Positions 1 to 40,879 of a DNA stretch of 44,872 nt are shown in pieces (the first letter of the stretch is position 1; every line of letters starts with the position of its first letter). The DNA is from a virus, in IMG/VR virus record IMGVR_UViG_3300045996_001246, positions 1 through 44,872 of that record; one strand, 5' to 3'. Both the position numbers and the translations under genes were made by a program. The notes beneath the pieces are model-generated. The model ran no database searches. It saw nothing but the letters and a program-made list of their open reading frames with translations, and had not been told where the DNA came from.

Positions 1-51
1 TGGTACATCAAACTCAAAGAGATATTCAGAAAGAAGTATACCGATGTATGA
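1..51 (+). CDS. C-terminal end of an upstream gene (partial)
   Basis: The first reading frame is open from base 1 to a TGA at 49-51, giving 16 residues rich in lysine and aromatic residues. It overlaps the next start codon (ATG at 44) by 8 bases, the same tight coupling seen through this phage. Too little is present to assign a function, and it could be chance. Confidence 0.4.
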   Translation, partial: WYIKLKEIFRKKYTDV

Positions 52-784
52 GGTAATAGGCCACGAGAAGGTCCGTGAGGAGCTCAAGAATCATAAGGGC
101 TCTTTCGTTATTTTGGGCCCTGAGGGTGTGGGGCGACGAGGAATCTTGGATGAGTGGGTCCAGAATTCGAGAGCTGAGGTACTTCCCAGCCTGAACCTTA
201 AGGTCGCCCAGATTACCGCTGAGCGCGTAACGAATGAGCCCGGCCTCACGGTAGCTACTGATGCGGATGGAGCTATAGATGCGGCCTGGGGGCCACTGTT
301 GCGTCCGATCGAGGAGGGAATTCTAAAGATCGGAGCAATTATCGATGACTATCCCTCCAAAGAGTTAAAGACGCGCGTTCGCCTGTTTAATGTCGGCTAC
401 CTGGCTGAGTCTGAAATTTTGCGAATTCTCGCAACTCAATATCCAAGCTATACTCCTCGACCCTGGATTGCCAAGGCCGCGAAAGGGACCCTGAAGGATC
501 TGGATCATCTTGCAGCCGTAGTTCACGTTTTCGAGCCGATCAATTACGCCCTGGAGAATCACAAGGTTCCGAACCAGACATTGACCAACCCTCGTGCCAC
601 GTTTGAATGTATTAGGCTGGCGTGTGCGGCCCGTCTCGGGGCTGTCAATCTCCCATGGACTCCGGCAGCACTTTCCTACCTGGACCATAGCATGGCTCAG
701 ACTTTTCTGGCATTGAATACTCCCGGCAGTATTCACGATTATCGCAACCTCAACCAACTATTCTTCGGGTGGATCTATGGCTAG
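44..784 (+). CDS. Clamp-loader delta prime-like AAA+ protein
   Basis: This 246-residue protein begins with a short helix typical of AAA+ clamp-loader subunits (IGHEKVREEL), followed by a degenerate P-loop, GPEGVGRR, near residues 22-29, with Arg where Lys is expected. Near residues 107-117 the stretch SKELKTRVRLF resembles the 'L..tirSRc' segment of DnaX/HolB proteins, with SRC replaced by TRV. A non-catalytic P-loop suits delta prime, which does not hydrolyse ATP in bacterial loaders. It is shorter than HolB (about 330 residues). It is followed at 1076 by a delta-like gene and then the polymerase, and the phage encodes DnaX and a beta clamp elsewhere. The start follows AGAAAGAAG. A generic AAA+ ATPase is the main alternative. 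Confidence 0.55.
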   Translation: MYEVIGHEKVREELKNHKGSFVILGPEGVGRRGILDEWVQNSRAEVLPSLNLKVAQITAERVTNEPGLTVATDADGAIDAAWGPLLRPIEEGILKIGAIIDDYPSKELKTRVRLFNVGYLAESEILRILATQYPSYTPRPWIAKAAKGTLKDLDHLAAVVHVFEPINYALENHKVPNQTLTNPRATFECIRLACAARLGAVNLPWTPAALSYLDHSMAQTFLALNTPGSIHDYRNLNQLFFGWIYG

Positions 785-1079
785 CTATGAGGGACGCGAA
801 CATTTCCTTCGCATCAGTGAGGAAGAGGGTTTGGAGGTGTTCCACCCCGAGGGTTGTGAGCAGCGAGAGATAATGGCCAAAGTTTTGATCTATTCGTGCG
901 ACATTGGCGAACACATCAATGAGTGGGGGATGGACTTACACTTATCCGAGTTAGAGCCTGGAATCTATTTAGCTCAGTATTGGTATGTCCCTATGAAGTG
1001 GGCCGGATCTCATCCGATCGAGGCAGACGACGGAATCAATCTTACTCGTTTGACGAAGGACACGACTTGGACTGGGTGA
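777..1079 (+). CDS. Hypothetical protein, 100 aa
   Basis: I do not recognise this family. The product is a soluble, acidic protein with several aromatic residues, and has no membrane segment or metal-binding cysteine cluster. It overlaps the delta prime-like gene by 8 bases and the delta-like gene by 4 bases (GTGA at 1076-1079), so it lies in one translationally coupled cluster with the two clamp-loader candidates and the polymerase. A role as an accessory replication factor is inference from position only. Confidence 0.6.
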   Translation: MASYEGREHFLRISEEEGLEVFHPEGCEQREIMAKVLIYSCDIGEHINEWGMDLHLSELEPGIYLAQYWYVPMKWAGSHPIEADDGINLTRLTKDTTWTG

Positions 1080-2002
1080 ACGGCCATTCTCGCGTGGTCC
1101 CTGGTAAGAAGGTTTACCTCTTTCTCGGACCCGGAGGACATCTGCGCGATCTTCTCATTCAGCAGGCCGTGGCTCAGTCCGATTTCGTGAGGAGCCTTCG
1201 GCCTCCTCTTTCATCCTCTGATCTGAGTTTCTCGACCGGGCTTGAGCAGACCCAGACGACGGTAATTCGCGGGACAGAGGATATGAAATCCTCTGACTGG
1301 GAGGTCGTGGCGGGATATCTCGACGGGCGAAAGCCTCCTGGCCAGTCCCTCATCCTCAGTGGCGAGCTCGTGCCCGAACTTCCCGAGGCCAAGAAGGCCA
1401 AGAACAAGATCCAGGGCCAGGGCATCATGGTTGACACAACCCCACCCGGGGGCGAGATCGGGAGGAAGGATCTTGTTCAGTGGGTGCTGGAGGAATGGAA
1501 AGTCACGATCGATGTCGCCCGCCAGGCCTGCTCCCGCGCGGGATACTCTCCAGAGGCCCTGGTGTGGGCCACACCGGTCTGGAAGACCCTCTCCGGAGGA
1601 CGGCCGGTGGTCGGCTACCAGGCCCCTAAGATGGTCGAGTTGGTCTTGCCCGCGACCGATGAGGAGTCTGTCTATGGCCTGATCCTGACCCGTCACAGGA
1701 TGACTGCATGGGAGGCCGCGAAGACCCTGCCTCCCGAGTCCATTCTCGGTCTGCTGCGCAGGCTGGAGGCGGCTGTGACCGATCTCGGGAGGTTGCATTC
1801 AGTCCTCGGGGATGGTAGACTGTCTGCAAAGATCCTATCGAATCGAAGCGGGGTCCACATCGTTCGAACGCTGGAGCTGATGTCCCTCGCTTCCCACTAT
1901 AGCCCAGCATCCGTGGCTCAATGCCGACAGGCTCTGCAAATCGGGTTCGATAACCATCGGCAGCCAGAAGTGGCCGCCCTTACTGCTCTGATATGGGGAT
2001 AG
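1076..2002 (+). CDS. Clamp-loader delta subunit-like protein
   Basis: The protein is 308 residues from GTG 1076, which overlaps the upstream stop codon. The frame is open further upstream, but that part lies inside the preceding gene. An N-terminal strand-loop (KVYLFLGPGG) is followed near residues 85-130 by a layout typical of HolA: a short helix and Pro-rich loop, a hydrophobic strand (SLILSG), a lysine-rich helix and then a beta strand. Next comes a W-rich segment (LVQWVLEEWKV) of the kind HolA uses in its 'l..wi....' region, and an all-helical C-terminal half like the collar domain. There is no Walker A lysine motif, as expected for delta. In bacteria delta opens the beta ring. Assignment rests on architecture and neighbours; sequence similarity is weak. 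Confidence 0.45.
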   Translation: MNGHSRVVPGKKVYLFLGPGGHLRDLLIQQAVAQSDFVRSLRPPLSSSDLSFSTGLEQTQTTVIRGTEDMKSSDWEVVAGYLDGRKPPGQSLILSGELVPELPEAKKAKNKIQGQGIMVDTTPPGGEIGRKDLVQWVLEEWKVTIDVARQACSRAGYSPEALVWATPVWKTLSGGRPVVGYQAPKMVELVLPATDEESVYGLILTRHRMTAWEAAKTLPPESILGLLRRLEAAVTDLGRLHSVLGDGRLSAKILSNRSGVHIVRTLELMSLASHYSPASVAQCRQALQIGFDNHRQPEVAALTALIWG

Positions 2003-4237
2003 ATGCCTGACCTGCAAAGGCTTTACAAGCTTGATGAAGTCAAGCTCATGGCCGACAAGCTTATGGAGGCCGAGAAACCCGTCTGTTTTGACCTTGAAAC
2101 GGGATATCACGGAATGGATTCCCCGAAGAACTCCCTGAACGTCTATGCCGCCAATCAATTCGTGGTTGGATGCTCTATGACCAACGATGTTCGATGGGCT
2201 CGATATATCCCATTGCTGCATGACTTCGGCGATAATCTGGATCCAGAACAGGTCTGGCCAATCCTTCAGCCCGTTCTTGAAACTCTGCCGGTCACTGCCC
2301 ATAACATCTTCTTCGAGGCTTCCAATGTTGAGGCCCTGGATCACAAGGGTCACGGACCTCGGATTATCTTTGATCGTAGCAAATGGAACGACAGCCAGAT
2401 TCAGTCCTACGTTCTGTCCGAATTCCGAGATCATCGACTGAAGCACCTCTCCAAGGATGTGTTCGGATATGACCAGGCCGAGATCACCAGCCTGTTTGGC
2501 GGAAAGCTGACCAAACACCAGCAGGACTGCATCCGATTCAACATCCTCCCCATTTCTCCCGAGGTCATTGACTACGCCTGTGATGACGTTATCATGTCAT
2601 TGAAGCTCGACCAGCGGAATGCCGAGAAGGTTTGGGCCGAGAGAGCAGACATCTATCGTCTGGAAATGCAGATCGTTGATGTCTTGATCGACATGACCCG
2701 GTTCGGGCTGGAAGTGGATTGGGACCTCATTGATCAAGAGATACTTCTCTACAACAAGTTCGTCCAGAACATGGAGCTTCGCACCCGTAAACTGTTTGAG
2801 GAATCAGCGGGCAAAGACCTCACCTCATTCAACTTCAATTCCTCCCAGCAGATGCAGAAGCTTCTGTTCGAGGATCTTGGACTGAAGCCCGCCCGGTATT
2901 CGAAGAAGACCAAGAAGCCCTCGACTGAGCAGGCAGCTCTGGAGGCTTTGCGTCGTCAGCATCCTGCCGTCGATCAACTTCTGCGCTATCGCCAGGTAAT
3001 GAAGATGGGCCAATTCTACGAGACCTGGAAGCCTCTCCAGGGATTCAGTGAGGACAATCGTGTCCACGCTCCGTTGAACCAGACCAGGGTTCAGTCCGGG
3101 CGATTCGCATCCTCTGAGCCAAACTATCAGAACATTCGCAAGGAGTTCTTCTACACCACAGAATCCCAGGAAGAGTGGGGTATAGAGGACGACAAGGAAT
3201 TTCAGAAGGCGGTCATTGCCTCGGGCACCAATGGGGATAACTACTGGGCAGGAAAGCCCCGGAGCATTATCGAGGCCTCGCCTGGATGGACCCTGCTGTC
3301 CTTCGACTATTCCCAGCAGGAGCTTCGAGTCGTGGCCGCCCTAGCCAACGAGACCCGCCTGCTCGATTCCTTCGCTCGTGGTGAGGATGTCCACCGCAGG
3401 ACCGCATCCCTGGTCTTCAGTGTCCCGCTGGAGAGAGTCACCGACACCCAACGTCAGCAGGCCAAGACGGTCAACTTCGGTCTGATCTACGGCCAGGGCG
3501 CTCAGGCCTTTGGAGAGAGCCTCGGAATCACTACCGAGGAAGCACAGAACCTGATCGATCGCTACTTCGCAGCTTTACCTGCCTTGAGCGCATGGTTCGA
3601 TGAGATCAAGGCCTTGGGTCGCCGTCAGGGTTATGTCGAGTCTTTTATGGGCCGCAAGTCCAAGCTCTGGGATCTGGAGAGTCAGTTCAAGGGTGTTCGG
3701 AACAAGGCCGACCGGATGTGTGTCAACCTCCCAGTCCAGGGTGGTGGGGCAGACATTGCCAAGGTCGCCATGGTCCAGGCCCGTAGAGAGTTGATCAAGC
3801 TCGGATGGTGGGGAGTATCTGTTCGTCTTCTGATGAACCAGCACGACTCCCTGGTCTTCGAGGTCCGCGACGACATGGATCTCAAGAAGGTCCGCGATAT
3901 TCTCCAGCCTCTTGTCTCGTTCAGGATCGAGGGCTTCCCGGAATTCACCGTGGATTGGGAGTATGGCCAGGAGTGGGGTAACTTGAAAAAGCTGGAGAAC
4001 GCTGCTAAAATAGAGGTAGTCGAGCAGCAGCCAGCGACACCTCAACATTTCGATGTAGTGTTCTCAGGGCTTGCCTCGGCCGAGCATGTAAAGGCTGTCG
4101 CCGATCTGCTCAAGAAGCATCCTGGCGACACCCCCGTTCGATTCATTGTCGGGGGTGTTGCTAAGGAGCTGAAACTCAAGGTCACACCATCCGACGATCT
4201 GCACATGGCTGCAGACGTTCTCATGCCGGAGGAGTAG
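2003..4237 (+). CDS. polA-like: Family A DNA polymerase with 3'-5' exonuclease and a DnaE-like C-terminal extension
   Basis: This 744-residue protein is the replicative polymerase candidate. It has no 5'-3' exonuclease domain and starts directly with the 3'-5' proofreading domain: Exo I FDLET (29-33), Exo II HNIFFEASN near residue 100, and Exo III YACDD near 192. The polymerase core shows motif A SFDYSQQELR (about 433), motif B RQQAKTVNFGLIYG (about 484-497) and motif C NQHDS (about 611-615). Pol I enzymes normally end shortly after the segment seen here as EYGQEWGNL (about 655). This one continues for roughly 80 residues, including KKHPGDTPVRF and a VTPSDDL segment, a pattern I associate with the C-terminal domain of bacterial Pol III alpha (DnaE). 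It directly follows the delta-like gene. The polymerase call is very secure; the nature of the tail is inference. Confidence 0.96.
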   Translation: MPDLQRLYKLDEVKLMADKLMEAEKPVCFDLETGYHGMDSPKNSLNVYAANQFVVGCSMTNDVRWARYIPLLHDFGDNLDPEQVWPILQPVLETLPVTAHNIFFEASNVEALDHKGHGPRIIFDRSKWNDSQIQSYVLSEFRDHRLKHLSKDVFGYDQAEITSLFGGKLTKHQQDCIRFNILPISPEVIDYACDDVIMSLKLDQRNAEKVWAERADIYRLEMQIVDVLIDMTRFGLEVDWDLIDQEILLYNKFVQNMELRTRKLFEESAGKDLTSFNFNSSQQMQKLLFEDLGLKPARYSKKTKKPSTEQAALEALRRQHPAVDQLLRYRQVMKMGQFYETWKPLQGFSEDNRVHAPLNQTRVQSGRFASSEPNYQNIRKEFFYTTESQEEWGIEDDKEFQKAVIASGTNGDNYWAGKPRSIIEASPGWTLLSFDYSQQELRVVAALANETRLLDSFARGEDVHRRTASLVFSVPLERVTDTQRQQAKTVNFGLIYGQGAQAFGESLGITTEEAQNLIDRYFAALPALSAWFDEIKALGRRQGYVESFMGRKSKLWDLESQFKGVRNKADRMCVNLPVQGGGADIAKVAMVQARRELIKLGWWGVSVRLLMNQHDSLVFEVRDDMDLKKVRDILQPLVSFRIEGFPEFTVDWEYGQEWGNLKKLENAAKIEVVEQQPATPQHFDVVFSGLASAEHVKAVADLLKKHPGDTPVRFIVGGVAKELKLKVTPSDDLHMAADVLMPEE

Positions 4238-4238
4238 A

Positions 4239-4481
4239 ATGCACATAACCACGGGTGCTCGATTCGGGGCTAGGTCTTACGAGGTTGGGCTCGACTCCTC
4301 AGATGGATTGGCCAAGTGGCCGGACGAATGGGATTCTTGGCCTCTCGCTAAGAAGGCCCGAAAGCTCACCGCTGCTGCGGATCTATTAGTGATCCTGTAT
4401 GCCGAGCGCGAAAAAAATCTTCTTACTCCGGAGGAGATCAACATCAGAAAGGCCCACCATGTCGAGGTCATGAACGAATGA
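4239..4481 (+). CDS. Hypothetical protein, 80 aa
   Basis: The start codon lies one base after the polymerase stop, and GGAGG in the end of the polymerase gene can act as ribosome-binding site. The product is a small mixed-charge protein with a helical second half and no recognised motif. It ends in an ATGA overlap with the next gene at 4478. Its place in the polymerase operon is the only functional clue. Confidence 0.6.
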   Translation: MHITTGARFGARSYEVGLDSSDGLAKWPDEWDSWPLAKKARKLTAAADLLVILYAEREKNLLTPEEINIRKAHHVEVMNE

Positions 4482-4997: not shown

Positions 4998-5008
4998 AGA
5001 TATCAAGT

Positions 5009-5020
5009 GGGCATTTGCCC
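5009..5020 (+). other. Hairpin at the 5' end of the SSB mRNA leader
   Basis: GGGCA (5009-5013) and TGCCC (5016-5020) form a perfect 5-bp stem with a TT loop, about 5 bases after the predicted transcription start. There is no U-tract, so it is not a terminator. A 5'-terminal stem of this kind can protect mRNA; that is inference. Confidence 0.5.
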
Positions 5021-5049
5021 TAGTGGCCATAAGGTCTCATTCATTCCAA

Positions 5050-5066
5050 GGTATAAGGAGTATACC
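5050..5066 (+). promoter_or_regulatory. Hairpin with the Shine-Dalgarno sequence in its loop, next to the SSB start codon
   Basis: GGTATA (5050-5055) and TATACC (5061-5066) are perfect inverted repeats enclosing AGGAG (5056-5060), and the ATG follows at 5067 with no gap. The ribosome-binding site is therefore the loop of a 6-bp hairpin. This could tune or autoregulate translation, or the dyad could be an operator in DNA. Confidence 0.6.
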
Positions 5067-6014
5067 ATGCCGAAATCAGGATTTGGTTCGGACTACAAGC
5101 AGAAGGACCCCTTCGATTACCCGAGGCTCAAGCTCTCGGTGGGCGACAGGGCCAGGATTTGCGTAATCGGTGAACCCGACTACGAGTACCTACATACCAT
5201 CGAGGCTGTCATCACCGAAGATGGTAGGCCCAAGATGGTGAAGTCCACCGTTTCAGGCGGACGCGAGATCGAACGCCCCGCAACCGATTTCCGGGGTCAG
5301 TTCGTTTGCCTCGGAGACCTTGACACCCTGGCTAAGAAGGGCATCGACCCTGACAACTGCCCGGCCTGCAAGGCTCACGTCGAGAATGGCCAGGCCGTCA
5401 AGCGTCCTGAGCGGCGATACATCGTCCACATTCTCAAGTACACGACCAAGAAAGGTTCGTTCACCGCAACTCAGCCATTTTCGGCCGAAGTCATGGCCTG
5501 GACCTTCAACGACAAGAGGCATGCCTCGCTCTCCGACATTGCTGATGAGCACGGAGACATCAGCCGGATCGATCTGTTGCTCGGGCCGTCTGAGCCTCCG
5601 GAGAAGTTCCAGAGGTACCCAATCATGCCGGGCGGGCAGGCTGAGTGGACCAAGAGCGAAGAGAATAAGAAGATCGCTATGGAGACTCTGAAGAACAACA
5701 AGTCTGACGATCTCCCTCGTCTTCTCGGTCGCAAGGTTGACGCCACCTCTCTGCGCAGTGCGGTCCAGGAGGTCGTGAACATCTACAACCAGGCATTCGG
5801 GTTCCCGGGTCAGATTCCGACCCAGGAGGCCGAGAAGGAGATTCCGCAGGCGTCGTCCGATCTCGATAGTGAGATCAAGAACCTGCTGGATGAAGAGACC
5901 TCAAATGAAGAGCCGAACACCGAGGAGTCGGCAAGCACGGAGGAGAAGGAGGCGAAGCCTGTGAAGGAAGAAGGCAAGAACGTAAGCCTGCTAGACCTCG
6001 TGGATTCTTTGTAG
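5067..6014 (+). CDS. ssb: Single-stranded DNA-binding protein, T4 gp32-like
   Basis: This 315-residue protein starts at ATG 5067 behind AGGAG. The frame is open to 5007 but lacks a ribosome site there. The layout matches gp32-type SSBs: a basic/aromatic N-terminal segment, a core with a Cys-rich zinc-binding-like cluster (Cys near residue 77, then CPACKAH near 97-103), a basic stretch (KRPERRY), and a long acidic tail of about 60 residues dominated by Glu, ending in a hydrophobic tip, LLDLVDSL. Acidic tails of SSBs recruit partner proteins. It sits between polymerase and recombination genes behind its own strong promoter, as expected for a highly expressed SSB. The gp32 family assignment rests on architecture. 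Confidence 0.65.
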   Translation: MPKSGFGSDYKQKDPFDYPRLKLSVGDRARICVIGEPDYEYLHTIEAVITEDGRPKMVKSTVSGGREIERPATDFRGQFVCLGDLDTLAKKGIDPDNCPACKAHVENGQAVKRPERRYIVHILKYTTKKGSFTATQPFSAEVMAWTFNDKRHASLSDIADEHGDISRIDLLLGPSEPPEKFQRYPIMPGGQAEWTKSEENKKIAMETLKNNKSDDLPRLLGRKVDATSLRSAVQEVVNIYNQAFGFPGQIPTQEAEKEIPQASSDLDSEIKNLLDEETSNEEPNTEESASTEEKEAKPVKEEGKNVSLLDLVDSL

Positions 6015-16913: not shown

Positions 16914-17843
16914 GTGACACTAGCATCCGCAGAGATTCAAAACTTTCAGTCCATCGGCTCCGCTCTCCTCGATTTTGAGAAGTTCACGGTTCTGGTAGGA
17001 CCTTCGAGCTCGGGGAAGTCTGCAGTGCTTCGAGCCCTGCGCGCCCTGCTCCGCAACACCTTCGTTCCTTCCAACGTCCGCCAGGGCAAGACCAAGGCCT
17101 CGGTCACTGTCTATCTTAATGACCACCAGATCTCGATGGAACGAGGCAAGTCACTCTCGACCTATTATCTCGACGGTGAGGCCTACCCCAAGTCTGGACG
17201 CAGTGTCCCTGACCCGATCCTGAAGGTCCTGAAGCTCCCACTCATCGAGGGAGTGGATCCGACCTTCTCGTTCCAGTTTGATCGCCCCTTCCTACTGTCT
17301 GAGCCTGGGTCTGTGGCTGCGAATGTCATCGGTTCTCTCACCAACGTTTCAATGCTGCATGCCGCCACGCGCGAGGCCAACCGTAGACGCACCGAGGCCT
17401 CAGGGGTTCTAAGGGTCCGTCAGGCCGACGTAGAGCGCCTGTCTGAGAGGGTTGAGACCTTCCGCCATCTGCCTGCCCGCAAGAAGGCCCTCCAGAAGGC
17501 CCGTGAGGGCCTCCAGAGCGTCCAGGAGCTTGCTGCCCAGGCAGACACACTCCGCACTGTCCTAGGCCGTCTAGAGGCCGCACAGGGCTTCCTAGAGGGT
17601 GTAGAGCTGCCGGAGGTTCCAGACATCGAGGATCAGATCCAGGCCATCGAGGATGCCGTCTTCGATCAGGCCAAGTATGTCTCGGCCGTAGAGCGGATTG
17701 AGGCCGCCTTGACTCTGGTTCAGTCCTATGGTAAGCTCATCACCGAACATGACGAGCAGATCCAGCAACTACGAGAGGAGTATGATGCAGTCCTTAGAGA
17801 AGCCGGAGTCTGCCCTACCTGCGGAAAGCCGACCCACGCCTAA
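16914..17843 (+). CDS. sbcC-N: Rad50/SbcC N-terminal half: ATPase lobe, coiled coil and zinc hook
   Basis: The 309-residue protein opens like Rad50/SbcC: an IQNFQSIG strand, then Walker A GPSSSGKS (about residues 29-36) followed by a helix. Residues 150-295 are a coiled coil with long Glu/Arg/Lys/Leu runs, and the chain ends with CPTCGKPTHA, a CxxC zinc hook. In normal SbcC the hook is in the middle, and a second coiled coil plus the Walker B lobe follow in the same chain. Here the chain stops just after the hook, and the missing lobe is encoded at 22102. SbcD/Mre11 is at 18405. The complex would process DNA ends and hairpins. The start is GTG, apparently leaderless. Confidence 0.8.
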   Translation: MTLASAEIQNFQSIGSALLDFEKFTVLVGPSSSGKSAVLRALRALLRNTFVPSNVRQGKTKASVTVYLNDHQISMERGKSLSTYYLDGEAYPKSGRSVPDPILKVLKLPLIEGVDPTFSFQFDRPFLLSEPGSVAANVIGSLTNVSMLHAATREANRRRTEASGVLRVRQADVERLSERVETFRHLPARKKALQKAREGLQSVQELAAQADTLRTVLGRLEAAQGFLEGVELPEVPDIEDQIQAIEDAVFDQAKYVSAVERIEAALTLVQSYGKLITEHDEQIQQLREEYDAVLREAGVCPTCGKPTHA

Positions 17844-18221: not shown

Positions 18222-18408
18222 GTGGGCCGAGGCCCATGATGTCGAGAATTGGCCAGTAGTCCGAAACATCATTGTTGAGAGTTCGTGGGGCCTGGAAGAC
18301 GGTTACGGGTTTACTGTGGGTGGGGACTACGGGATCGCCCTCAGGCTTGGAAGCCGTATTGTCTTCTACAAGCGTAACTACGATCCCGTTCTCCATTACG
18401 ACTCATGA
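18181..18408 (+). CDS. Hypothetical protein, 75 aa
   Basis: GTG 18181 lies within the end of the preceding gene, with GGAAGAGGTGAAG about 10-20 bases upstream. The product begins with a basic helix, then a beta-rich part with alternating Tyr/Gly/Val (such as DGYGFTVGGDYGIALRL). It ends in an ATGA overlap with the SbcD-like gene. No family is recognised. Confidence 0.55.
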   Translation: MKKFIGRSLIRAVEWAEAHDVENWPVVRNIIVESSWGLEDGYGFTVGGDYGIALRLGSRIVFYKRNYDPVLHYDS

Positions 18409-19325
18409 GGCTGCTCCTGATTGGGGATGTGCATCTTTCGGACACCCCGCCGAGCGTAAGGACTGACTCCTATGCTGACGACATCCTCGCCAAGCTCGAA
18501 TGGATTGTGGATACGGCTAATAGATCCAAAGTAGATTGGATTGTTCAGCTTGGTGATCTTTTCCACATCAAAACGCCCTCTCGTACTTCCCATGCTCTTC
18601 TCCAGAGGACAGCCCAAGTTCTGGAGCAATCCAGAGTCTGGACTTGGGTAGTGCCGGGTAATCATGACATGCGGCATGACCGTCTTGACAGCCTTTCTTC
18701 CCAGCCCCTCGGAACACTGGCACTGAGTCCAGATGTGTGGCTCCTCGATGGTCAGGCTGGGGAAATTTACGGAATACCCTACACCGAGGACCTTGAGAAG
18801 TTTCAAGCTGAGCTGGACAAAGCTAAGTCCCGCAGGATCAAGCTGATTGCAGCGCATGCGGCCATCTTCCCTCCCGGTGTGCATCCGCCCTACCCGCATT
18901 GGAATGCCGACCAGCTTGATACCCACGGCACCCCTTTGGCCTACGGCCACATCCATGAACCTCATGGCTTCTATGAGGTCAATGGGACATGGTTCTGCAA
19001 CAATGGAGCTATTAGCAGGGGGTCTCTCCATGAGGAGACATTGAACCGCGAGCCAGCCGTTACTATCTTTGACGATTCTGTGGGAGGGAATCCGTTCACG
19101 TCAATCCCCGTACCTTTCAAACCAGCAGAGCAAGTTTTCAGACTTGCAGAGCATCAGGAGGAAAGAGCCAAGGCGGCAAGACTGGATGACTTTCTCCGCA
19201 GTGTTGGAGGCGTGTCACTGACTTCTCTGAGTCTGGAGCAGATCATAGATCACGTCAGGCAAGGAGATCTCCTGGGCGAAGATGCCCAGCGAGAACTCAG
19301 AGACATTGTTGAGTCACTAGCTTGA
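18405..19325 (+). CDS. sbcD: SbcD/Mre11-like nuclease subunit
   Basis: The 306-residue protein has all metallophosphoesterase motifs in order: GDVHLS (residues 7-12), GDLFH near 49-53, GNHD near 85-88, the AAHAA region near 147, and GHIHEP near 184-189. Mre11/SbcD uses two metal ions to cut DNA ends and hairpins, powered by Rad50/SbcC. The C-terminal ~60 residues are charged and helical, suitable for the ATPase-binding helices of Mre11. It lies between the two halves of the split SbcC and just before a Cas4-like nuclease and the beta clamp, so a shared role in end processing during replication is likely. Confidence 0.85.
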   Translation: MRLLLIGDVHLSDTPPSVRTDSYADDILAKLEWIVDTANRSKVDWIVQLGDLFHIKTPSRTSHALLQRTAQVLEQSRVWTWVVPGNHDMRHDRLDSLSSQPLGTLALSPDVWLLDGQAGEIYGIPYTEDLEKFQAELDKAKSRRIKLIAAHAAIFPPGVHPPYPHWNADQLDTHGTPLAYGHIHEPHGFYEVNGTWFCNNGAISRGSLHEETLNREPAVTIFDDSVGGNPFTSIPVPFKPAEQVFRLAEHQEERAKAARLDDFLRSVGGVSLTSLSLEQIIDHVRQGDLLGEDAQRELRDIVESLA

Positions 19326-20784: not shown

Positions 20785-21008
20785 GCGTAGAGCAAGAACT
20801 AGCCCGAATCCGGAAGGCCCAAGAAGCCACCGCGCGGGAGCGCTCAAGGGTGGAGGCTCAGATCGAGCACCAGAAGTCCATCATCAAGGGAGCTGCCCAG
20901 GAGCTTGCCGAGCTTGGATGCAATACCGTAGAGGATGCCAAGAAAGCCATTAAGAACTATCAGGTCCGAATCGATGAGGGCCTAGAGGAGATCAGGAAGA
21001 TTCTGTGA
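20781..21008 (+). CDS. Small coiled-coil protein, 75 aa
   Basis: GTG 20781 overlaps the Cas4-like stop by 4 bases and the gene ends in a GTGA overlap with the beta clamp, so all three are co-translated. The product is a single charged helix with a short break near residues 45-50 (ELGCNTVEDAK), rich in Glu, Arg, Lys and Gln. It contains one cysteine and no hook motif. It could partner the split SbcC halves, but this is inference from position and shape. Confidence 0.6.
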   Translation: MSVEQELARIRKAQEATARERSRVEAQIEHQKSIIKGAAQELAELGCNTVEDAKKAIKNYQVRIDEGLEEIRKIL

Positions 21009-22105
21009 AGATCGGTCTGTACCGCCAGGACCTTCTGGCTGCACTGGAGAAGGTGTCGAAGGTCGCCTCTACCTCTGGATCGGTATCCATCCTCTCCTAT
21101 TTCTTGATCGAGGCTGAAGGCGAATCTATTAGGCTTTCCGCCACAGACCAGTCCGTCTCTCTCATCCTCCCTGTGGAGGGAATCGTTTCCGAGCCAGGTC
21201 GAGCATTGCTCCCGGCCAAGGAGGCTTTGCAGATCTTGAAGACTGCCCAGGAGTCGGGAGTGGCCGTCGCCACCCGAGACAATGACATCGTTTCCATCCT
21301 GTGCGGCACAAGATGGAATCTCAAGACTCGAAGTGTGGACGCCTACCCCGAACTCAAATTCGATGCCTCCGGAGCCTCTATCGAGGGGGATTTCTCCAGG
21401 GATAAGATGCTCACCGCACTCAACTCCGTCAAGCGCGCCATGTCAACCTCACTCGCACTCGCCCAGATTGGGATTGTCAAGGGCAACGTTCGAGCCGGGG
21501 ATGGGGTATGGTTTCAGGAGTACAAGTTCCCGAACGCTCCCCTGCTTGATATGACCGTCGTCCGTGCAGCGGTGCCCCATCTCGTATCCATGCTCTCTAA
21601 CTCAGATCAGGATCGGATACATATCACCATCCTGGAGGATGGTATGATGCTCCTTGATGTCGGGCAGGAGCGCCTGACTGTTCGTCCTCCGGCATATGAG
21701 TTCCCGGATCTCGACAAGACTTTCCTGGTCCCAATGATGGCGAATTCGGATACCTTGAAGGTGAACCGACGCCATTTGATCGGAGCCATCCAGCGGGTGT
21801 GCATCACTTCCGAGCAAAGCTCAAAAGCCGTTGTCTTCGGCCTTGGGCCGACCACGAACATGGAGGTCTCGGCCAGGAACCAATCCGGATCCTCCTCCCA
21901 AGAGACCGTACCGGTGCAATGGCTGGGTCAGCCGCGCAAGGTTATCCTGCATCACGAATATGCCTTGGCCATGCTCCATTCGTTCTCCGATGAGGACCTG
22001 TTCATGGCATTCGGTTCTGATCAGCCTAGCAAGCCATCGACTTTGTTCATCCGTACGGATACCCAGACCGCCGTCCTTAACCAACTCAGGTCGGAGTTCG
22101 TATGA
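21005..22105 (+). CDS. dnaN: DNA polymerase III beta-like sliding clamp
   Basis: The 366-residue length equals that of bacterial beta clamps. The N terminus (KIGLYRQDLLAALEKVSKVAS, then ILSYFLIEAEGESIRLSATD) is the classic first-domain pattern of DnaN: a helix, 'p.l....l..' strand and 'l.lsaTD'. It continues with AYPEL near residue 110 and a third domain of similar layout, ending near the C terminus in strands that normally close the ring. The protein would encircle DNA and tether a polymerase. It is unusual for a phage to carry a bacterial-type clamp. The start is GTG 21005, overlapping the coiled-coil gene; SbcC-C overlaps its end by ATGA. Confidence 0.85.
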   Translation: MKIGLYRQDLLAALEKVSKVASTSGSVSILSYFLIEAEGESIRLSATDQSVSLILPVEGIVSEPGRALLPAKEALQILKTAQESGVAVATRDNDIVSILCGTRWNLKTRSVDAYPELKFDASGASIEGDFSRDKMLTALNSVKRAMSTSLALAQIGIVKGNVRAGDGVWFQEYKFPNAPLLDMTVVRAAVPHLVSMLSNSDQDRIHITILEDGMMLLDVGQERLTVRPPAYEFPDLDKTFLVPMMANSDTLKVNRRHLIGAIQRVCITSEQSSKAVVFGLGPTTNMEVSARNQSGSSSQETVPVQWLGQPRKVILHHEYALAMLHSFSDEDLFMAFGSDQPSKPSTLFIRTDTQTAVLNQLRSEFV

Positions 22106-22746
22106 CCGTATCCGAGATTGAAGCCTTTCTCCGCCAGGAGGAGGATATCTATGCCCGCAAGGCGGGCGAGGCTATTTCAGTGATCCGGGATCTCCAATCC
22201 AAGCAGGAGGAGGTCGAATCTCTCAAGGCCAGGATCGAATACCTTGATCGGATCGCGGTTGTTCTCAGCTCCTATGCGGATGAGCGCCAAGCTGTGGTCC
22301 AGCACCAGATCGAGGGTATCGTGACTCAAGGCCTGCGGACCATCTTTGGCGAGGACCTGGCATTCAAGGTCGTGAACAAGATGGTTGGTAGGCGACCCGA
22401 GATTGATTTCATGTTGGTCTCCAGGCATGGGGACACCGAGCTTGAGACTTCTATTCTCGATGCCCGTGGCGGAGGAGTGGCAGCCGTTGCAGGATTCCTC
22501 CTTCAGGCCGTGCTGGTCCTGCTTGTGCCGAACCAAACCCCCGTGCTATTCTTGGACGAGGTATTCTCGCAGGTAAGCGTAGATTTTTTGCCTGCTGTGT
22601 CATCCTTCATTAGGGAATTGGTGGACAGGACCGATCTTCAAGTCGTGATGGTGACGCATTCGGATGTGTTCACCGATGATGCCGATCGCGTATATCGTTT
22701 TACCCAATCCAATGGCTTGACGAGGATTACCGATGCTAGCCATTAA
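22102..22746 (+). CDS. sbcC-C: Rad50/SbcC C-terminal half: coiled coil, signature loop and Walker B lobe
   Basis: The 214-residue protein starts with a coiled coil (residues 1-75) and then a beta-rich lobe. The region DARGGGVAAVAGFLLQA (about 137-153) sits where the ABC signature (LSGGE-like) is expected, although degenerate. Walker B follows as PVLFLDEVFSQVS near 161-173, and the H-loop as VMVTHSD near 193-199. This is the half missing from the protein at 16914, including the catalytic glutamate of DE. No Walker A or zinc hook is present. It overlaps the beta-clamp stop by ATGA and the DnaX-like start by 14 bases. Confidence 0.8.
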   Translation: MTVSEIEAFLRQEEDIYARKAGEAISVIRDLQSKQEEVESLKARIEYLDRIAVVLSSYADERQAVVQHQIEGIVTQGLRTIFGEDLAFKVVNKMVGRRPEIDFMLVSRHGDTELETSILDARGGGVAAVAGFLLQAVLVLLVPNQTPVLFLDEVFSQVSVDFLPAVSSFIRELVDRTDLQVVMVTHSDVFTDDADRVYRFTQSNGLTRITDASH

Positions 22747-23809
22747 GTGGCGGCCGACAGAGGTCAAGCACCTCGCCGGACAAGACTCAGCCAAGACCTT
22801 GCTGCTCGCGCTCGCCCACAGTGGTGAGCTTCCTTCCGCGTTCTTGTTCAGCGGCCCCAGCGGAACCGGCAAGACTTCAGCCGCCAGAGCCTTTGCTGCC
22901 CTCATCAACTGTGAGGAGCCTCAGGACAGCCTCTCCTGCGATCAGTGCGACTCCTGCTACCAGATACGGAAGGGGACCTCCCAGGCCGTCTATGAGCTTG
23001 ACGCGGCTTCCCATGGGGGGATTGAGGATGTCCGTCTCCTGCAGGAGCTGTCCCAGTTCTCGGTGAACGAGAAATGGCGAGTCATCATCCTTGATGAGGC
23101 TCATTCCATGAGCAAGGCAGCATTCAACTCCCTGCTCAAGATCTTGGAGGAGCCTCCGGCTTCGACCATCTTTCTGCTCCTGACCACGGAGCCGGATAAG
23201 ATCCTAGAGACAGTGCGCTCGCGTTGCATGCCCATCCCCTTCCGTGCGGTGCCGGACAAGGATATCCTGCGCTGGCTTACTATGGTTGCTCAGAATGAGC
23301 AGATCGCGTTCGAGCCTAAGGCTCTGGAGGAGATTGTCCGTCTCTCTGGTGGCAGTGTTCGGGAGGCCTTGATGACTCTCGATGCTCTTATTTGGTCAGG
23401 GCCTGTGACACCAGATGCGGTGTATCAGCTTTCAGGACACTTTCCCGTAGCCCCTCTTTTGGTTCGGGCGTTTATCACTCAAGATCATGTCTCAGCCCAG
23501 AAAACACTGGCCAGCTATTTTGAGTCTTCGGGTGATGTGTCGATGTTGATCTCCGATCTGATCGAGCAATTCCAGCTTCAGTTTGCCAGCAATGCGATCT
23601 CTCCGGCCCAAATGATTGCCGCGACCAAGATTCTTTGGAATGCTCGATCCGTCAATCTTTCGTCTCGTGATTTGCGCCTGCATACAGAGGCCCTAGTCAC
23701 GATGCTGTACGGGATCTTTTATGTGGAGCCCAAAGCTGAAAAGCCGATACTACGGGAAACGACCTCCCTGTCTTCATTGGAGGAAATGGCAGCCGTAGCA
23801 GAGGAGTAG
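22733..23809 (+). CDS. dnaX: DnaX (gamma/tau)-type clamp-loader ATPase
   Basis: The 358-residue protein has IKWRPTEVKHLAGQ at its start (the 'l.rkyRP..f.dvvGQ' region), Walker A GPSGTGKTS near residues 41-49, four zinc cysteines in canonical spacing (INCEE, then CDQCDSC), Walker B IILDEAHSM near 120, and LETVRSRCMPIPF, the SRC arginine-finger segment near 160-172. The C-terminal third is helical (collar domain). Its length corresponds to the gamma form; the long tau-specific domains that bind helicase and polymerase are absent. With delta- and delta prime-like proteins at 44-2002 it would load the beta clamp encoded just upstream. Confidence 0.9.
   Translation: MLAIKWRPTEVKHLAGQDSAKTLLLALAHSGELPSAFLFSGPSGTGKTSAARAFAALINCEEPQDSLSCDQCDSCYQIRKGTSQAVYELDAASHGGIEDVRLLQELSQFSVNEKWRVIILDEAHSMSKAAFNSLLKILEEPPASTIFLLLTTEPDKILETVRSRCMPIPFRAVPDKDILRWLTMVAQNEQIAFEPKALEEIVRLSGGSVREALMTLDALIWSGPVTPDAVYQLSGHFPVAPLLVRAFITQDHVSAQKTLASYFESSGDVSMLISDLIEQFQLQFASNAISPAQMIAATKILWNARSVNLSSRDLRLHTEALVTMLYGIFYVEPKAEKPILRETTSLSSLEEMAAVAEE
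23745..23751 (+). promoter_or_regulatory. CGATACT motif inside the end of dnaX
   Basis: This copy lies inside the dnaX coding region, 62 bases before the GTG of the putative small terminase gene, the first gene of the packaging block. It may serve as a promoter for the block; a chance coding match is possible. Confidence 0.3.
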
Positions 23810-37480: not shown

Positions 37481-40400
37481 ATGGCAACTCTAACGGCCTA
37501 CCCCACATCTAACTCTGTTATTTCGGGCACTGTCTGGGCCACTCTTACTAATGCCTACGGCGCTCCTGATACCACGGTCGCAACCTATACGTCTTCGACC
37601 TCTAGCGCCACCGGTACTGTTGAGTATGGCACATATGATTTTTCGGCCATTCCTGCCGGTTCCACGATCAACTCTGTTACAGTTGGCGTAACCCAGGGAT
37701 GTAACAACACTGGCCGACTTCTAGCCCCTCAGTACCAGGTATTCTTGGCCGGTTCTCAGAGTGGTACGACTCAGACTGGAACTCTTCAGACCGCGCTAAC
37801 GCTGAACACCTTTGCGGCTACTGTCTTTACGTTGGCTCAGCTTCAGACTTCAAACAACGTTCGTGTTCGCATCATTGCCCGCAAGGCAGCCTCCACCCAG
37901 TCCGGTATTCAAAACATTGATGCCGTCGCCATTACGGTTGACTATACCCCACCATCCCAGAACTTCTCGGGGTCTGCAACCCTGTCCGGATCGGGAACTT
38001 TGAGCGGCGTCGGTACTGTCGTTTCTTCGGGAACCTTTTCAGGTTCCGGCACTCTAACACTAGCTCCCCCTCCGACCTCGATTCCGAATGTTGTTCTTTG
38101 GTACACGGCGAAGGATGTTTCGGGGCTCGCTGACGGTGCGGCTGTCACTACTCTGGCATCTCGCGTAGGTAGTTCAAACGCTGCGCAGGCCACTTCAAAC
38201 CAGCAGCCAACCAAGCAAACAGTCAGCGGTGAACCTGTTATTCGATTCGACGGTTTTGACGATTCTCTCACCCTCGACGGTACGGCCTTGGGTGTTACGA
38301 ATAACATTGCCGGGTTAAGCATATTTATCCGGGCGAAGCTTAACAGTGTTCCCACTGTCACTTCGGGACATTTCCTATCCTTTTCAACCAACGCTATTAA
38401 CTCTAGCCGCATAACTGTTCGGATTCCGGGAAATACTTCCAACTTTGCCCTTGGAGGTCGTCGAGTTGACGGTACGTCGTTGGTTGTAGTGAGTGGTGGC
38501 ACTTACGGAACCAGCGCGCCGCGCGCTATCAGTGCGATCTACGATTTTGCTAACAACGATCTATTTGGCTGGCTTGATGGATCCTCAGTAATATCTAACA
38601 CCAACTGGGATACCTCCTCTGGCAATACCTCAGCCACTAATTCTGCCGGTGCCGCGTTGGGTGCGCTAGCCAGTGGGTCAAGTGAATTTTTGGCCATTGA
38701 CCTGTATGAAGTCGTCATTATAAATCGGGTTGTAACGACGGCCGAGCGTCAAGTTCTTGAGAGCTACCTCAATCAATCTTCTTCTGGATTCGCGAACCTC
38801 TCTGGATCCGGAACCCTGGTTATTGAATCACCTTCTGAAACCGGCTATTACTCAGAAATCTACTCGGATGTTTACGGTGCAGCTCCTACTGGCTTTACCG
38901 GCTCTCTGACCCTCTCCGGATCAGGAACTCTTTCGTTCCCGACCCAGACGCCTACTCCTATCCAGACGGCGAACCTATCGGGTGCGGGAACTCTGAGTTT
39001 CCCAACCCAGATTCCTACCCCGATTCAGATCGCTAACTTGTCCGGATCGGGAACTCTGAGTTTCCCAACCCAGATTCCTACCCCAATTCAGGTTGCAAAC
39101 CTTTCTGGATCAGGAACTCTAAGCCTCCCATCTCAGATTCCTGCCCCTATCCAGACCGCAAATCTCTCTGGCTCCGGAACTCTTTCTGGGCTAGGATCCC
39201 CGACGCCGCTGGGAGCATTGGCCCTTTCAGGCTCAGGAACCCTTTCCGGGTTATCTTCTCTTGTCACTACCTTGGGCTCCGTCCTGCTTTCTGGTTCTGG
39301 TACCCTTTCTACTTCGGCTATCCCCTCTCCTATCCAGGCCTTGAACCTGTCCGGATCCGGAACACTGTCGGGGGTCGGCCTGGTGATCTTTGTCGGTACT
39401 TTGAACTTGGCGGGTTCGGGAACCCTGACCACTTCGGGGGCTCCTAATCCTATCTCTGCGGTCGCTCTCTCGGGTTCTGGCACCTTGTCCGCATTGTCGG
39501 GGCCCATTACTATCTCAAACCTATCTCTGTGGTTTAAGGCCTCTGCCCTTTCTGGACAAGCCGATGGATCGGCGGTTACCTCCTGGAATTCTGAAGTTGG
39601 GACATCCACAGCCTCCCAGGCTACGGGAGCGAATCAACCGACCAAGGTGACCCCGATCGGTGCGACCGCTGTTCGGTTTGACGGTAGCAATGATTACCTT
39701 CTGTTGAACGGAGATGCGCTGACTTTCTCGAATAATATTGCCGGAGCTACGGTGTTTGTTCGGGCCAAGTTTACAACCACTCCTTCGGTGGGGCACATGC
39801 TTTATGCTACTGTGAATGGTTCGAATGGCATTCGTCTTTCGGTCTATTCGAGTTCAGGTGCCGGATCTTTGGCCGCCCGTAGGCCTGACGGTAGCACGCT
39901 CGCACTTCTTGTCGGCGGCACTGGTGCGGGTACGACTTTGGTAAAGACTCACACAGCCGTATTCGATTTCGCCAACAGCGATGCCTTTATTTATCTGGAT
40001 GGGGTATTAACTAATTCCAGCACTTCATTTTTGACTTCTGGAAATACGAATGCGTCGGACGCTTCTCTCGTAGCGATTGGATCTCATCCTGCAGGGGGCA
40101 CTGAATTTTTGGGCTTTGACCTGTATGAGCTGCTGGTCTACAACAGAGTTCTTTCCAGTACCGAGCGTCAGGTCGTAGAAAGTTACCTGAATCAGACATT
40201 GACTCTGGTCGGATCCACCGCCCTATCTGGTTCTGGAACTCTTACTACGGCGGCGATCCCGAAGCCTCTCGGAGCCGCGTCATTGGCGGGTTCGGGATCT
40301 CTTTCCACCTCGTCTATTCCGAAGCCTTTCGGTGCGTCTGTCCTATCCGGCTCTGGAACCCTGTCTGCGGTCCAGGTCGGCAATGACTTCTACGATGATG

Positions 40401-40879
40401 ACTATGAAGCAGATCCGATCTATTATGTGTCGTTGTCGGGATCAGGCTCATTAACTGCGCTAGCAATTCCAAAGCCAACCCAGGCGGTGGGCCTCTCCGG
40501 ATCCGGTACTCTTACTACTTCTGGTGCCCCTGCTCTGATCCAGACCGCAAATCTCTCCGGAACAGGCTCTCTGACGGCCGTAGGAGCTCCAGGAGGTTAT
40601 GCTGGTACCTTGACCCTCTCGGGGGCTGGAACGCTCTCAGTGGCTCTCCTGCCGCGTCCTACGGGCAGTTTAGGGCTCTCGGGGGACGGTACTCTGAGTG
40701 TCACAGCTCGTCTGGGAGTGGCAAGGTCGATAAATCTTTCTGGGTCCGGTACACTGACGCTCTATGGCATCGTCCCAAGCCCCGGTGGAGGAGCGACCGT
40801 CGTCAAGGTCATCAGCGGAGGCGTTCAGGTCACCGCCACCCTCAAGGCTGTGGTCAACGGGGCCTTGGTAACGGTGTAA
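37481..40879 (+). CDS. Large repeat protein with two lectin-like domains, 1132 aa
   Basis: The 1132-residue protein has an N-terminal beta-sandwich (1-155), then about 22 short repeats of the form LSGSGTL(S/T), many separated by 12-16 residue linkers such as PTQIPTPIQ. Two ~220-residue domains (about 200-430 and 685-905) are copies of each other: LWYTAKDVSG/LWFKASALSG, then IRFDGFDDSLTL/VRFDGSNDYLLL and a closing VVTTAERQVLESYLNQ/VLSSTERQVVESYLNQ, the concanavalin A-like (LamG) pattern. It has no signal peptide. Codons are richer in T than in its neighbours. It is likely a virion adhesin; a head fibre or connector-region spike fits its place between connectors. Confidence 0.65.
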   Translation: MATLTAYPTSNSVISGTVWATLTNAYGAPDTTVATYTSSTSSATGTVEYGTYDFSAIPAGSTINSVTVGVTQGCNNTGRLLAPQYQVFLAGSQSGTTQTGTLQTALTLNTFAATVFTLAQLQTSNNVRVRIIARKAASTQSGIQNIDAVAITVDYTPPSQNFSGSATLSGSGTLSGVGTVVSSGTFSGSGTLTLAPPPTSIPNVVLWYTAKDVSGLADGAAVTTLASRVGSSNAAQATSNQQPTKQTVSGEPVIRFDGFDDSLTLDGTALGVTNNIAGLSIFIRAKLNSVPTVTSGHFLSFSTNAINSSRITVRIPGNTSNFALGGRRVDGTSLVVVSGGTYGTSAPRAISAIYDFANNDLFGWLDGSSVISNTNWDTSSGNTSATNSAGAALGALASGSSEFLAIDLYEVVIINRVVTTAERQVLESYLNQSSSGFANLSGSGTLVIESPSETGYYSEIYSDVYGAAPTGFTGSLTLSGSGTLSFPTQTPTPIQTANLSGAGTLSFPTQIPTPIQIANLSGSGTLSFPTQIPTPIQVANLSGSGTLSLPSQIPAPIQTANLSGSGTLSGLGSPTPLGALALSGSGTLSGLSSLVTTLGSVLLSGSGTLSTSAIPSPIQALNLSGSGTLSGVGLVIFVGTLNLAGSGTLTTSGAPNPISAVALSGSGTLSALSGPITISNLSLWFKASALSGQADGSAVTSWNSEVGTSTASQATGANQPTKVTPIGATAVRFDGSNDYLLLNGDALTFSNNIAGATVFVRAKFTTTPSVGHMLYATVNGSNGIRLSVYSSSGAGSLAARRPDGSTLALLVGGTGAGTTLVKTHTAVFDFANSDAFIYLDGVLTNSSTSFLTSGNTNASDASLVAIGSHPAGGTEFLGFDLYELLVYNRVLSSTERQVVESYLNQTLTLVGSTALSGSGTLTTAAIPKPLGAASLAGSGSLSTSSIPKPFGASVLSGSGTLSAVQVGNDFYDDDYEADPIYYVSLSGSGSLTALAIPKPTQAVGLSGSGTLTTSGAPALIQTANLSGTGSLTAVGAPGGYAGTLTLSGAGTLSVALLPRPTGSLGLSGDGTLSVTARLGVARSINLSGSGTLTLYGIVPSPGGGATVVKVISGGVQVTATLKAVVNGALVTV
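38910..39510 (+). repeat. Dense block of LSGSGTL repeats
   Basis: Within the 1132-aa protein, ten consecutive repeat units lie here, three with near-identical linkers (FPTQIPTPIQ type). Further units lie at 37970-38060, 38800, 40220-40370 and 40430-40760. At the DNA level the copies differ at many third positions, so this is an old or diverged expansion. Confidence 0.7.

Follow-up and report, generated by a model that had tools for sequence, protein, structure and literature searches.

DNA polymerases of families A and C have unrelated catalytic domains, and we know of no Pol I-type enzyme in which a dedicated domain provides the coupling to a clamp loader. In Escherichia coli, tau binds through its last residues to the C-terminal domain (CTD) of the Pol III alpha subunit, DnaE, and thereby keeps the polymerase on the clamp loader. 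The tau-binding domain spans alpha residues 1079-1160, and the tau C-terminal domains of E. coli and Taq are unrelated to each other (PMC4703070), so that the partner half of this contact varies while the CTD is its constant half. The naming of the DnaE CTD and its role with tau are also reviewed in PMC3919608.

Several viral replication systems share components with this arrangement. The T4 replisome (gp43, gp44/62 and gp45) comprises a phage-encoded polymerase, loader and clamp, the polymerase belonging to family B and the clamp being of the PCNA type. Aquificae viruses (TOSV and relatives) combine PolA with a Pol III beta clamp, with no loader recognised; the portion of the source available does not mention a CTD of the DnaE type (PMC7689252). 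Jumbo phages of subgroup 3.1 encode a T7-like polymerase and an RFC-like clamp loader but no clamp, and the available sections of their description mention neither a CTD nor a DnaX C-terminal motif (PMC7824862). Pol I, T7-like polymerases and virioplankton PolA consist of exonuclease and polymerase domains.

The window analysed here, a 44,872-nucleotide stretch corresponding to the viral record IMGVR_UViG_3300045996_001246, encodes a family A polymerase together with a bacterial-type clamp loader and a beta clamp. As in the DnaE system, the clamp loader is encoded alongside a CTD-bearing polymerase, whereas the CTD is carried by a family A rather than a C-family enzyme, is not preceded by an OB domain and coexists with a DnaX that has only a short C-terminal motif in place of tau domains IV and V. 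The polymerase has its two enzymatic domains and motifs A and B in common with other family A polymerases, from which it differs by the CTD, the accompanying loader and clamp, and the altered motif C. A family A polymerase and a bacterial-type clamp are shared with the Aquificae viruses, a family A polymerase and a phage-encoded loader with jumbo subgroup 3.1, and the full set of phage-encoded polymerase, loader and clamp with T4. No report of a family A polymerase bearing a DnaE CTD was found in the searchable literature, the coverage of which is incomplete, and the arrangement is therefore presented as unreported there rather than as proven novel.

Domain organization of the polymerase

The polymerase gene occupies positions 2003..4237 of the + strand and encodes a 744-aa ORF with an ATG start (PF00476, PF01612), consisting of a family A DNA polymerase with a C-terminal DnaE-type CTD. 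The 3'-5' exonuclease domain (2105..2614; Pfam, residues 35-204) retains the complete DxE...N...YxxxD motif set as read from the sequence, namely D30/E32 just upstream of the Pfam span, N101 and Y191/D195, which according to alignment are kept in relatives. The polymerase domain DNA_pol_A (2786..3979; residues 262-659; PF00476, 5e-92) follows. Its motif C aligns as HDS in the window (3842-3850) and as HDA in relatives, compared with HDE, so that the catalytic Asp is retained and the third residue changed.

Downstream of the polymerase domain, the chain continues with a linker read from the sequence (3983..4039; residues 661-679, 19 residues) and then QHFDVVFSGLASAEHVKAVADLLKKHPGDTPVRFIVGGVAKELKLKVTPSDDLHMAADVLMPEE, the DnaE-type CTD (4040..4234; residues 680-744; HMM core 691-735). 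These ~19 residues are all that separates the polymerase domain from the CTD, leaving no OB domain between them, and the linkers of relatives are variable and longer. The original prediction, made by eye from the sequence, was that Pol I proteins usually end earlier and that about 80 extra residues are present here. This is borne out by the lengths: past motif C, the polymerase of the window runs on for 128 residues, compared with 45-48 in 18 complete cellular Pol I proteins, an excess of ~85 residues over the usual Pol I end. The two strings on which that prediction drew, LKKHPGDTPVRF and VTPSDDL, are indeed present in the tail. The PHP and Pol3 catalytic domains of DnaE were not found, there being no TIGR00594 match in the window and no corresponding Pfam match in the polymerase.

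Sequence comparison of the tail with DnaE

A purpose-built DnaE CTD HMM was derived from 77 C-terminal domains, the sources being 80 diverse bacterial DnaE loci together with E. coli, Streptomyces-plasmid and phage DnaEs. This profile matched residues 691-735 at 25.9 bits (E 3e-7 at Z=1000), well above chance given that the highest score among 2000 shuffled tails was 7.8 bits and the highest among ~330 other window ORFs was 9.4 bits. Comparison of the tail with the DnaE CTD alignment by hhalign gave E 2.4e-8. When the full DnaE alignment was divided into 85-column windows, only the C-terminal windows matched the tail (E 5e-8), the best value elsewhere being 0.0037 and the best of 200 shuffled tails 3e-4. 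A clade tail profile built without the window and its closest relative likewise matched the DnaE CTD, colinear across 72 columns with E 5.4e-7, compared with 0.023 for the best among 200 column-shuffled alignments.

When 30 bacterial genomes, translated in all six frames, were searched with a combined profile of the DnaE CTDs, the window tail and the tail of the nearest relative (L139), E values below 1e-4 were confined to ORFs of ~1130-1240 aa, the length of DnaE. Cellular Pol I gave no CTD match, either in the 18 complete proteins or in the Pol I genes covered by the six-frame search, and a tail of this kind is thus not a feature of ordinary cellular Pol I within this sample. In the PDB, the same profile matched E. 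coli alpha residues 1082-1158 and two other bacterial alphas, one of them from Taq. Collectively, these comparisons bear out the proposed resemblance and identify the tail, at the level of sequence, as a genuine homologous copy of the DnaE CTD, placed as in DnaE (E. coli 1079-1160; Taq 2HPI, 3E0D and 4IQJ; 7PU7) at the extreme C-terminus of the polymerase.

The tail used as a single sequence gave no credible match in Pfam, NCBIfam, PHROGs or the PDB (phmmer), and it would therefore escape library searches. Among phages, tblastn of the tail found no match; among plasmids it returned 13 weak matches, one of which falls on the C-terminal end of DnaE from Streptomyces and is regarded only as a lead. 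A genome scan with a peptide pattern taken from the tail alone revealed no relative, and a viral contig scan with a degenerate DNA pattern for LxxHPGxTPVR yielded eight stretches, none of them a CTD or a PolA relative.

Predicted fold of the tail

An AF2 model of the tail of a relative, L157, obtained from a viral-only alignment, reached a pLDDT of ~92 over residues 1-70 and displays a b-a-b-b-a-b fold. Compared with 350,542 PDB chains, its best six matches were all Taq Pol III alpha (2hpi, 4iqj A-D and 3e0d), with probabilities of 0.95-1.00 and Foldseek E values of 0.008-0.04, that is, not below 0.001. The ranking is nonetheless clean, the next match having a probability of 0.18. Within a viral structure library, the best match of this model was another phage DNA polymerase. 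For the window tail, modelled alone and from its single sequence, the model was weak (pLDDT 67) and had no significant fold match, and the structural evidence consequently rests on L157. The expected similarity to DnaE C-terminal structures is thus recovered in the predicted fold of the clade representative.

Distribution of the domain among viral polymerases

The clade of viral PolA proteins was assembled from two pattern scans of viral contigs, with the addition of phage Magritte. The linker and CTD occur in ~28 related viral polymerases, the closest relative of the window enzyme (L139) being 46% identical and carrying a clear CTD. Across the clade the domain is small (~65-75 aa) and its fold core is conserved, with nearly invariant P11 and G28 positions; individual HMM scores often fall below 10 bits. 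The PolA of Gordonia phage MScarn has no tail. Three members of the clade (L140, L142 and L147) lack the CTD while DnaX is present in all three, indicating that the CTD is dispensable, and no stand-alone CTD gene was found in these members on stretches of up to 20 kb each.

A further group, clade B (L099, L100, L101, L103, L110 and L111), is found on contigs of 250-400 kb, except for L111, a 37-kb fragment; by description, these large phages resemble jumbo subgroup 3.1 (PMC7824862). Their PolA proteins have a long linker and a CTD-like tail and form a separate branch in the tree, with weak support at the separating node. Clade B tails gave a suggestive match to the DnaE CTD (E 4e-5, probability 69) and none to clade A tails, so that a CTD is not firmly claimed for this group.

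Two further features were noted among the relatives. In many members, including L104, L114, L143, L155 and L157, the tail ends in a conserved hydrophobic motif (RGIEL, ADIAF, VGISL) that may bind the clamp as a peptide; this motif is absent from the window and from L139. Within the L139 polA ORF (994-4320), the exonuclease domain is interrupted at the HN/FE motif by an insert resembling an intein, which runs from CFSGDAEFLT... to ...GGVLTGNS. A delta-polymerase fusion considered for L139 was rejected, as the extra N-terminal length corresponds to this insert and delta is encoded upstream by an ORF of its own in a different frame.

Clamp loader, clamp and gene neighbourhood

Upstream of polA, the window encodes a divergent delta'-like AAA+ clamp loader subunit (44..784, + strand), whose family profile matches DnaX/gamma at 5e-16 and E. 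coli delta' (1a5t) at 2e-9. It is followed by a small ORF (777-1079), which lies between delta' and delta, and then by a HolA-like clamp loader delta (1076..2002, + strand), whose family profile matches B. subtilis delta (3zh9_B) over its full length at 4e-15. The delta gene more likely starts at the GTG at 1076, which overlaps the upstream stop, than where its ORF opens at 923, and its TAG stop immediately abuts the polA ATG. This delta'-delta-polA order recurs across the clade. Downstream, a protein conserved across the clade (5007..6014, + strand; 38 matches) is annotated in phage Magritte as a single-stranded DNA-binding protein (gene 72).

The remaining components are placed away from this cluster in the window: a DnaN-like beta sliding clamp (21005..22105, + strand; PF00712 4e-14, phrog_947 2e-29) and a DnaX-like clamp loader ATPase of 358 aa comprising domains I-III (22733..23809, + strand; PF13177 4e-41, phrog_5846 3.5e-59). 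DnaX, delta and delta' of a bacterial-type clamp loader are all encoded. In phage Magritte (OR553905.1), genes 4 and 247, both annotated as 'ASCE ATPase', match DnaX and the beta clamp, respectively.

DnaX accompanies the CTD in 12 of 13 CTD-type records, the single miss being a 37-kb fragment, compared with none of 14 viral records with a tailless PolA. In the second record set, true DnaX was identified in 18 of 26 records, and the remaining eight gave delta' matches only, on fragments of 26-105 kb. Within the first set, all seven records belonging to clade A contain the beta clamp, as do 19 of 26 in the second, and no PF00712 clamp was detected in clade B. Each of 31 records encodes exactly one family A polymerase (31/31), and DnaE occurs in addition in only one of them, which suggests that PolA is the replicase and that this phage lineage probably has no other replicative polymerase.

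Two contigs depart from the common gene content. The contig of L146 (G033:99166-99975) encodes a full-length DnaE (ORF of 1233 aa) in addition to a CTD-bearing PolA. The DnaX ORF of L224, on the contig of L142, is 723 aa long and its match to DnaX is split in two, as would fit an intein interrupting this ATPase.

A DnaX C-terminal motif lost together with the CTD

The original prediction carried the caveat that the phage DnaX is short and without the tau domains that contact alpha, and this was confirmed: at 358 aa the protein of the window ends just after domain III, and E. coli-type tau domains IV and V are absent from the phage DnaX. Where the polymerase has the CTD, DnaX continues beyond domain III with a linker rich in Pro and Ala and closes with a conserved C-terminal motif, [RK]x[LM][ST]LxE[ML], exemplified by RKLSLAEMQRG (Magritte), RRLSLADM and KKLTLQEMRERVGK. 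The strict motif is present in 21 of 23 CTD-bearing members, 19 recognised by regular expression and two (L205 and L206) by eye, and a loose form occurs in the window (SLSSLEEM) and in L220. Shuffled tails produce the motif at a rate of 1.7%, and the C-termini of cellular DnaX proteins differ from it. In clade B, DnaX ends in a related L[ST]PxEWR motif (L[ST]PxEWRxxF), except in L111.

In each of the three members lacking the CTD (L140, L142 and L147), DnaX ends at domain III and the motif is missing. The association between CTD and motif has a hypergeometric p of 0.004 for the strict and 0.0004 for the loose form, values that are descriptive rather than an independent test because the motif was noticed in the same sequences. 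L140 and L142 are nested within the CTD clade in the tree, a placement that makes their condition a loss of the CTD within the clade, and L147 probably represents a second loss; the paired absence thus corresponds to about two events.

Proposed function of the CTD and alternative explanations

We consider it likely that the CTD, by way of the DnaX motif, tethers the Pol I-type replicase to the clamp loader of the phage, in analogy to alpha and tau in E. coli. The CTD would dock on the short conserved motif with which the phage DnaX ends and which is borne on a flexible linker, and the Pol I-type enzyme would so be tied to the loader; the tethered polymerase could then receive the newly loaded clamp and remain in the replisome. 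Such a contact would constitute a minimal analogue of the alpha-CTD/tau interaction of E. coli that dispenses with tau domains IV and V. Operon order, co-occurrence and the paired loss of CTD and motif support the link to the clamp loader indirectly. The homology of the CTD, its conservation across the clade, the loader and clamp genes, their order and the paired absence are observed, whereas physical binding of the CTD to DnaX, clamp hand-off and a replicative role are inferred. It is moderately probable that these phages represent a new class of replisome, in which the sole family A replicase carries a DnaE CTD that binds the motif of a tau-less DnaX, found in one clade and possibly arisen independently in clade B.

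Among the alternatives, binding of the CTD, or of the extreme C-terminus beyond it, to the phage beta clamp instead of DnaX, as in the tether of T4 gp43, is unlikely, though two points favour it: the hydrophobic termini of many clade tails fall in a low-pLDDT segment and resemble a short linear motif, and the tail module of E. coli alpha adjoins the clamp when DNA is bound (PMC4703070). These termini are, however, missing from the window and from L139, clade B combines a CTD-like domain and DnaX with no detectable PF00712 clamp, and it is the DnaX motif that was lost along with the CTD, the beta clamp being retained in L140 and L147, two of the three members that have no CTD. A DnaE-derived CTD might otherwise capture tau or SSB of the host and thereby recruit the phage polymerase to host forks; SSB is the protein whose C-terminal tail retains DnaE at the fork in B. 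subtilis. Retention of B. subtilis DnaE through another protein's C-terminal tail rather than through tau is described in PMC3919608, and the CTD is a host-type domain. We nevertheless regard host capture as improbable, as the phages encode their own DnaX, delta and delta', an SSB-like protein and usually a beta clamp, and as the CTD is found only alongside a phage-encoded DnaX and disappears together with its motif.

The remaining explanations question the domain itself. Its small size and the low similarity of most clade members to the DnaE profile would be compatible with convergence of small b-a-b-b-a-b folds, a reading rendered very improbable by the shuffle and window controls, the colinearity over the whole domain, the identical C-terminal position in the polymerase, the fold ranking and the six-frame specificity for DnaE. 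Even less credible is a vestigial, functionless leftover: losses in two lineages (L140/L142 and L147) might be expected of one, yet the domain is kept in ~28 diverged members with its core and near-invariant positions preserved, and where it is lost the DnaX motif goes with it.

If the preferred reading, a tether between the CTD and the DnaX motif, is correct, the DnaE CTD grafted in nature onto a family A enzyme would show that a module for tethering the loader can be moved from one polymerase family to another, and a minimal alpha-tau-like contact would be isolated in a ~65-residue domain and a ~10-residue peptide. The joint loss of both halves of the contact would amount to a natural experiment, and phage Magritte, an isolate on Microbacterium foliorum, offers a route to testing. 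The replication machine appears to have been reassembled from unrelated parts, namely a repair-type polymerase, a DnaE domain and the phage's own clamp loader, and the same domain would explain unannotated C-terminal extensions in current databases.

Other features of the window

Outside the replication genes, a 1132-aa protein (37481-40879) in the structural gene region consists mostly of LSGSGTLS-type repeats. Three neighbouring genes (at 13432, 13895 and 15360) have a common N-terminal segment, TYKxVGxDENxxFPxRVExRLA, in the manner of swappable tail or fibre modules. Separate genes at 16914-17843 and 22102-22746 match different portions of SbcC-like proteins, as if the ATPase were split, and an SbcD-like gene is located at 18405-19325.
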